This document shows, piece by piece, positions 16,081 through 17,786 of a DNA stretch of 64,000 bases. The notes beneath the pieces are model-generated. The model saw only the letters and a program-made list of their open reading frames with translations. It searched no databases and was not told the DNA's origin. Both the position numbers and the translations under genes were made by a program. This DNA is from an uncultured SAR86 cluster bacterium. Lineage in GTDB: Bacteria > Pseudomonadota > Gammaproteobacteria > Magnimaribacterales > D2472. Position 1 is the first letter of the stretch. Each line of letters starts with the position of its first letter. The DNA lies in the NCBI GenBank assembly GCA_902541175.1, contig CACBPP010000004.1, positions 1 through 64,000 of the forward strand, in the 5' to 3' direction.

Positions 16081-16108
16081 TTGACATCTAATTTAGTAGG
16101 AGTAATAT
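16081..16108 (+). promoter_or_regulatory. Sigma70-type promoter for ncRNA
   Basis: TTGACA (16081-16086), 16-nt spacer, TAATAT (16103-16108). Confidence 0.75.
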
Positions 16109-16113
16109 TAAAT

Positions 16114-16337
16114 GTACGGATGGCAACCGACTAGTGACCAACTGCAGACGGGAAGCTAGAGAGAAAGCCAGACGGAGAGACCGAAGGGTGAAAGCATTTG
16201 CAAGAGTCGATGATAAAAAATAGCTTGCAGATCCACCAAGGATTCAAGAGAAAGAATCCAAGGAGCTAAAGAAAATCTCACTTTAGACCCCTGAGGAATC
16301 GATTGAAAGAAACAGAGCTAGTCTCTGTTTTTTTTTG
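16114..16337 (+). ncRNA. Putative structured small RNA (~220 nt), family unknown
   Basis: Consensus promoter upstream, no plausible ORF, multiple hairpins (ATTTGCAAG...CTTGCAGAT; GGATTC...GAATCC), locally higher purine/GC content, strong terminator at the end. Confidence 0.7.
16311..16336 (+). terminator. Rho-independent terminator of ncRNA
   Basis: AACAGAG-CTAGT-CTCTGTT plus T-tract. Confidence 0.88.
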
Positions 16338-16376: not shown

Positions 16377-17786
16377 ATGGCTTTTACAAGAACAAAAATA
16401 ATTTGCACTATTGGACCACAAAGCTCTAATAAGGCAACATTATGTAAACTTCATTCAGCTGGTATGAATGTTGCCAGGATTAATATGTCCCACGCAACTC
16501 ATAAAAATGCAAAAGAGATTATAGATATAATTAAAAGTATTAATGAGACCAAAAATAGTAAGTTATCTAACATTGGTATATTGCTTGATACTCAAGGTCC
16601 AGAAATAAGAACAGGTGATACCTCTCTTCCAATTAATCTCAAAGTTGGTGACAAAGTTACATTAACTGTTCGTGATGAAGTCGACGTAGAAACCTCATCT
16701 ATAAAGGTCAATTACAAAGGTCTTGTTCATAGTGTTGATGTTGGCTCAAGGATTTCTGTTGATAATGGATTGATTAGTTTTAGAGTTCTTTCAAAAGAAT
16801 CAGATAATTTAGTTTGTAAAGTAATTCACGGAGGAAAGGTAGGCTCAAAAAGACATGTAAATTTGCCAGGCGTAAGATTAGATATGCCTTCAATAACTTC
16901 AAAAGATATGAAAGACATTACCTTTGGAATTAAAAATAATGTAGATTTTATTGCTGCTTCATTTGTCAGAAATAAAAAAGACCTTAAGATATTAGAAGAC
17001 CTTCTTCTTAAACAAAAATCAGAGTCAAAAATCATAGCTAAAATTGAAAATCAAGAGGGATTAGATAATATTGATGAAATTTGTGAATCTGCTTGGGGCA
17101 TCATGGTCGCAAGAGGTGATTTAGGTATTGAAACTAGTCTTACAGACTTACCAAATATTCAAAGAAAAATAATGCATTCTTGTGCAAAAAGGGGCAAAAG
17201 ATCTATTGTTGCTACTCATTTGCTTGAATCAATGATACAAAATCCAACACCAACAAGAGCAGAGGTTACTGATGTTGCAAATGCTGTATATGAAGGTGCT
17301 GACGCCATAATGTTATCTGGAGAAACTAGTATTGGTAAATATCCAGTTGAATGTGTGAAATATTTAAAATCAATATCTAAAAGAACAGAAAAATTTCAAA
17401 CTTTAGAATATGAAAAAGAACTCATAAGAAACTCAGATTGGGAGTCAATTGCTGTTGCTGCTAGAGACTTAAGTGAGTCTATAAAGGCTGATGGAATAAT
17501 TGCTGTTACAAGAACTGGATCAACTGCTGGTTATATATCAAACGCAAAACCAAAAGATATTCCAATCTATACATTTACCAACAATAACAACACATTAAAT
17601 CAATTGTCTTTAGTGGGCTCAGTCATTCCTTTCTATTTAAAGAGATTAAATAATCATAAAAAGACTCTTGAGCATGTTAAGGATGTACTAAAACCATTAC
17701 ATAGAAAAAAGAAATTAAAATTTGTTATGGTTTCTGGCATATTCTCTGAGAAACATTCAGAGGCAATTCAAATAATTAATTTTTAG
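16377..17786 (+). CDS. pyk: Pyruvate kinase
   Basis: RTKIICTIGPQSSN; MVARGDLGIE; IVATHLLESMIQNPTPTRAEVTDVANAVYEGADAIMLSGETSIGKYPVE. Confidence 0.96.
   Translation: MAFTRTKIICTIGPQSSNKATLCKLHSAGMNVARINMSHATHKNAKEIIDIIKSINETKNSKLSNIGILLDTQGPEIRTGDTSLPINLKVGDKVTLTVRDEVDVETSSIKVNYKGLVHSVDVGSRISVDNGLISFRVLSKESDNLVCKVIHGGKVGSKRHVNLPGVRLDMPSITSKDMKDITFGIKNNVDFIAASFVRNKKDLKILEDLLLKQKSESKIIAKIENQEGLDNIDEICESAWGIMVARGDLGIETSLTDLPNIQRKIMHSCAKRGKRSIVATHLLESMIQNPTPTRAEVTDVANAVYEGADAIMLSGETSIGKYPVECVKYLKSISKRTEKFQTLEYEKELIRNSDWESIAVAARDLSESIKADGIIAVTRTGSTAGYISNAKPKDIPIYTFTNNNNTLNQLSLVGSVIPFYLKRLNNHKKTLEHVKDVLKPLHRKKKLKFVMVSGIFSEKHSEAIQIINF

Follow-up and report, generated by a model that had tools for sequence, protein, structure and literature searches.

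IMES-1 in SAR86 bacteria: a stand-alone RNA gene with two self-complementary loops that point to self-association

In the dimerisation initiation site of HIV-1, a nine-nucleotide loop displays a palindrome of six bases with purines on either side, an arrangement like that of the AA-CUGCAG-AC loop of the RNA described here, IMES-1. The two are unrelated by descent, and IMES-1 is a free bacterial RNA that carries two such loops. IMES-1 was reportedly highly abundant in marine RNA samples when it was first described and is said to have had no assigned host at that time. In bacteria, the symmetric kissing loops OLE L9.3 and GOLLD L21a have been seen by cryo-EM and were argued from palindromic covariation too, in a study of OLE, ROOL and GOLLD that makes no mention of IMES (PMC12286853). 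The OLE dimer is like IMES-1 in that its palindromic loop L9.3 switches among relatives and kisses symmetrically between molecules (PMC12286853), but OLE is far larger, binds protein and uses a tetranucleotide, whereas IMES-1 has hexamers, 12 loop variants and two loops. The nanocages of GOLLD and ROOL are likewise formed by ornate bacterial RNAs of unassigned task that assemble by kissing loops, and in GOLLD the palindrome of L21a covaries (PMC12286853); these RNAs are much longer and form cages, whereas IMES-1 measures about 220 nt and its self-assembly is proposed from sequence. The argument for IMES-1 draws on more loop variants than those for OLE L9.3 and GOLLD L21a. 6S RNA and CsrB/RsmZ share size and a stand-alone nature with IMES-1, but the host has a separate 6S gene and no CsrA.

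The IMES-1 gene and its fold

The window, the whole 64,000-nt stretch of DNA analysed, is part of a 1.155 Mb, 13-contig genome of the SAR86 order. An Rfam 15 scan matched RF02034 (IMES-1) to window positions 16121-16312 on the + strand, as are all features below; the match scores 190 bits where the cut-off is 81 (E 1.4e-44). The alignment spans all 191 model positions and all model helices, and RF02034 is the sole strong Rfam family at 16081-16337. The locus is wholly like the family in sequence and in its marine bacterial source, the one difference being that Rfam draws the palindromic loops as plain hairpin loops. By this match we identify 16081-16337 as a stand-alone gene for IMES-1, a previously described RNA family of ocean bacteria. 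The initial annotation had described an orphan structured ncRNA, equipped with a promoter and a terminator of its own, for which no Rfam family was recognised; a discrete structured ncRNA it is, and the orphan status gives way to RF02034.

The gene has a sigma-70-type promoter (16081-16108; TTGACA at 16081-16086, 16 nt, TAATAT at 16103-16108), with a predicted transcription start at about 16114-16117, and an intrinsic terminator (AACAGAG-CTAGT-CTCTGTT-T9, 16311-16336). A single consensus promoter is on its own near chance level (2 found against 1.1 expected), but this one recurs 5' of 66 homologous IMES-1 copies in the window's family (f1), with TTGAC in at least 61 of the 66 and with differing flanking genes. 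The terminator was not listed by a generic terminator scanner, and its stem is kept in 52/52 aligned copies. Both elements had been read correctly from the sequence at the outset, as had the roughly 220 nt devoid of a credible open reading frame (none of 50 aa or more lies within 16081-16337) and the enrichment in GC (0.44, against 0.32-0.37 in the flanks) with a strong purine skew.

The fold comprises a 5' domain and a multiloop. The 5' domain (P1/P2, 16117-16174), defined by the minimum-energy fold, the helix list and double changes in relatives, contains the pairs CG/CG and TGGC/GCCA (16121-16124/16167-16170), CTAGT/GCTAG (16131-16135/16155-16159) and CC/GG (16138-16139/16151-16152), and presents the loop 1 palindrome CUGCAG (16142-16147), located by alignment and family comparison and proposed as the first self-kissing site. 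A proposed long-range contact between GACTAG and CTAGTC in the terminator loop did not hold up, for relatives differ in their terminator loop and CTAGT has a local partner in the GCTAG at 16155-16159. The multiloop is closed by P3 (16177-16300; GA/TC, CC/GG and AGGG/CCCT), a helix of the Rfam model with pair changes in relatives. Within it, hairpin P4 (ATTTGCAAG/CTTGCAGAT, 16196-16204/16224-16232) has most of its pairs changed on both sides in relatives and bears at its tip the loop 2 hexamer GUCGAU (16206-16211), which is self-complementary with G.U ends and is the proposed second self-kissing site; the conserved GAUAAAAAA follows it. Hairpin P5 (16236-16263) pairs GGATTC with GAATCC (16240-16245/16254-16259) and is extended by CC/GG across an AA/AA internal loop, and hairpin P6 (16266-16286) pairs CTAAAG with CTTTAG; pair changes in relatives accompany both, and P6 also belongs to the Rfam model.

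Minimum-energy folding of the window sequence alone recovered the Rfam helices, including the P4 and P5 hairpins recognised from the start, and both of these covary in relatives. Changes on both sides were observed at 28/62 pairs among 77 copies of f1 and at 15/25 pairs across families. The helices of IMES-1 are thus supported by covariation in relatives. The purine-rich single strands are highly conserved in an alignment of 52 copies.

Selection for self-pairing of loop 2

A palindrome kept through sequence change, one mark of a natural homo-oligomeric RNA of the OLE/ROOL/GOLLD kind, is what the comparison of loop 2 reveals. In 94/94 distinct IMES-1 sequences from three families loop 2 is self-complementary, in 67 strictly by Watson-Crick pairs and in the rest with G.U, counted per family because the MAFFT alignment of 52 copies misaligns loop 2 between families. 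These loops comprise 12 hexamer types (GUCGAC, GUCGAU, GUCGGC, GUUGAC, GUUAAC, GUAUAC, GUGCAU, GUGCGC, GCUAGC, GGUACC, GCCGGC and GCAUGC). When halves were exchanged among these 12 types, a mean of 3.8 remained self-complementary, and all 12 were reached in 0/100,000 shuffles. A tree inferred with the six loop 2 bases removed requires 21 or more changes of the hexamer, and all three of its nested base couples changed (10, 11 and 6 times). A scan of GTDB genomes and IMG/VR, using a pattern that allowed any base at the six positions, returned self-complementary hexamers in 45/45 true IMES-1 copies, many of them from genomes already in the first set, so that the scan mainly fixes the chance rate, which at 5/86 among chance matches in other organisms equals random expectation. 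From this comparative evidence, we regard selection for self-pairing of loop 2 as demonstrated.

Loop 1 has two forms, AA-CUGCAG-A (f1 and f4) and AA-CUCGAG-A (f2 and f3), such that its palindrome survives a switch from GC to CG between families; having two states only, this covariation may derive from a single event. Both hexamers are predicted to be accessible, with unpaired probabilities of 0.66 and 0.72 against an average of 0.44. Because adjacent bases of one chain cannot pair together, such loops would pair between molecules, and since a protein-bound DNA palindrome would keep its sequence and not symmetry alone, that origin of the palindromes is disfavoured. Copies within one genome were mutually compatible in their loops in 20/20 cases, against 41% for random genome pairs, a comparison confounded by the common descent of the copies. 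IMES-1 very probably forms a homodimer or homo-oligomer through its two self-complementary loops; kissing through loop 1, and the geometry and stoichiometry of the assembly, we infer.

These observations support a model in which the IMES-1 gene would use its own sigma-70 promoter and terminator to yield a transcript of about 220 nt, as the conserved sequence suggests. The transcript would fold, as covariation supports, into a hairpin domain at the 5' end and a three-hairpin multiloop. Each loop would then kiss its own counterpart on another copy, loop 1 through CUGCAG and loop 2 through GUCGAU. The product would be a homodimer that uses both loops, or a ring or chain if the loops reach different partners, and IMES-1 would work as a free-standing RNA or as an RNA scaffold. 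We assign this model as a whole, an own-promoter, folded, stand-alone RNA of about 220 nt joined by two symmetric kissing loops, a probability of roughly 0.82. A further step, in which the two different two-fold loops link copies of about 220 nt into closed rings or cages and so into an RNA-only particle, is tentative and in our estimate somewhat improbable. If true, IMES-1 would represent a class of natural RNA homo-oligomer that is both new and unusually small, and one of the most common bacterial groups of the ocean surface would be making a particle of RNA alone.

Among the alternatives, the one that survives best, and that we nonetheless consider unlikely, holds that the loops give occasional dimers only and that IMES-1 works as a monomer in complex with a protein or ligand. 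The highly conserved purine-rich single strands do resemble a binding site, but the repeated compensatory changes in loop 2 mean that selection acts on self-pairing itself. Less plausible again is an internal contact of loop 2 with another site of its own molecule, as a pseudoknot, or its pairing with a different RNA, self-complementarity being a by-product. In 8/94 sequences, all with GUCGAU, the hexamer could also pair with six bases close to the 3' end (AUCGAU or AUCGAC), and the window's own sequence carries AUCGAU there, which makes an intramolecular contact of loop 2 possible in the window's clade. The remaining 86/94 sequences, spanning 12 hexamers, offer the hexamer no complementary run of six bases at any other place in the RNA, which argues for intermolecular pairing; a palindrome would be unnecessary for a heterologous target, and the same palindromes evolved repeatedly in separate lineages, namely GUUAAC (two f1 genera and f3), GUCGAC (f1 and f4) and GCUAGC (f3 and f4).

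The pair of proposed kissing loops is not universal in IMES-1, since loop 2 is altered in f2, where the RNA is shorter at that point and loop 1 is retained. The free-duplex energies of GUUAAC, GUUGAC and GUCGAU are weak, at about -6 to -7 kcal/mol. A third palindromic site was considered in the P5 loop (AGAUCU, f4) and near the 3' end (UUCGAA, f3) and was set aside, as each is invariant and confined to one family and hence offers no covariation. A separate observation concerns the base that precedes AGCUU within the P4 loop (window 16221 and its f1 homologues), which tracks the loop 2 hexamer with few exceptions, being G with GUCGAC, GUCGGC, GUGCGC, GUGCAU and GUUGAC and U with GUCGAU, GUUAAC and GUAUAC; this second-order covariation is perhaps a lineage effect only.

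The literature searched, which comprised work other than the original 2009 description, makes no mention of self-complementary loops in IMES-1. To our knowledge its proposed self-association is new, and it is well supported by the comparative data; the palindromes were possibly noticed in the 2009 description. This strong evolutionary signature provides a testable clue to how IMES-1 works, and it places a short RNA among the very few natural RNAs whose homo-oligomerisation has evolutionary support.

Protein partners, housekeeping RNAs and neighbouring genes

It is very unlikely that IMES-1 is a housekeeping RNA in disguise. The 6S RNA gene is separate (G000 C1:289160-289332) and RF00013 gave no match at the IMES-1 locus, and tmRNA and RNase P RNA are encoded elsewhere in the same genomes. 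What speaks for an SRP RNA is that RF00169 is otherwise unmatched, in 10 SAR86 genomes at E<=10, but it is equally unmatched at the IMES-1 locus, and there appears to be no particle for such an RNA to serve. The Ffh/FtsY GTPase family yielded mere scraps in 21 near-complete SAR86 genomes against 14/14 positive controls, and a tblastn search with E. coli Ffh found no match in the single-contig genome G195, though rplS, trmD, rimM and rpsP were found there. With no Ffh or FtsY found, IMES-1 is therefore not a replaced SRP RNA. As an observation in its own right, SAR86 apparently lacks the entire signal recognition particle (G195, L286-L336, and 20 further genomes). The order thus seems to be without a recognisable SRP, and an order-wide loss of this near-universal particle would, if true, be notable.

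The gene pyk, encoding pyruvate kinase (16377-17786; PF00224 and PF02887), lies outside the RNA unit. Its start only 65 nt after the RNA, and its position as the next gene in many relatives too, could suggest a cis-regulatory leader, yet this reading is scarcely tenable: the conserved terminator intervenes, and in other relatives the next gene encodes an FAD enzyme, an SSF symporter, a patatin, glucokinase or PDH E1. Convergent genes also adjoin IMES-1, namely an oxaloacetate decarboxylase gene in some relatives and, in f3, a DUF1285 gene, with ETF-QO on the other side; in f4 IMES-1 precedes pheA (PheA) and in f2 trpS (TrpS). The same downstream gene across relatives, which would mark a leader class, was thus not observed, and promoter, RNA and terminator are kept as one unit while neighbours change. 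On this comparison IMES-1 is a free-standing RNA gene and no pyk leader. The link to the glycolytic gene pyk drawn in the initial annotation is incidental, because neighbours differ between genomes.

A role as a CsrB/RsmZ-like CsrA sponge, conceived from several GGA triplets and the purine-rich single strands, is excluded here because CsrA (PF02599) is absent from 36/36 searched genomes of f1, as it is from f4, which also has IMES-1, while sister families f2 and f3 and the controls E. coli and B. subtilis match, a refutation that holds unless the host has a CsrA unrecognisable to PF02599. An antisense RNA dependent on Hfq or ProQ was likewise rejected, as the host order has neither (0/60 searched genomes for each). 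IMES-1 can now be given a host order, a stand-alone gene structure, and independence of CsrA, Hfq and ProQ.

Distribution and copy number

IMES-1 was detected in 128/203 genomes of the order and in all four families, weakly and in one genus in f2, and in 0/14 control genomes; among genomes in one or two contigs, 9/9 carry it. Weak RF02034 matches in other f2 genera (L141, L142) were rejected, as they resemble coding sequence. Named records with a true IMES-1 are nearly all labelled SAR86 cluster bacteria, including SAR86A, the two exceptions being Pseudohongiella sp. AG-343-G22 and a Neomarinimicrobiota bin, with labels as deposited. Three IMG/VR fragments of about 2 kb (L277, L282 and L344) contain IMES-1 pieces that abut phage coding or structural-gene sequence abruptly, at three different points. 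Most likely they arose when assembly fused two sequences that are both abundant, and the idea that IMES-1 is phage-borne or marks an attachment site was rejected on that appearance; L345, also from IMG/VR, was discarded as a chance match.

Two or three matches were present in 29/128 genomes, and in several pairs the two copies agree at every base for about 190 nt despite different flanking genes. IMES-1 copies may undergo gene conversion and may promote rearrangement. Contig ends often lie in or near IMES-1, and paired copies, often identical, flank gene modules of carbon metabolism (L125, L128, L134, L114, L115, L153 and others).
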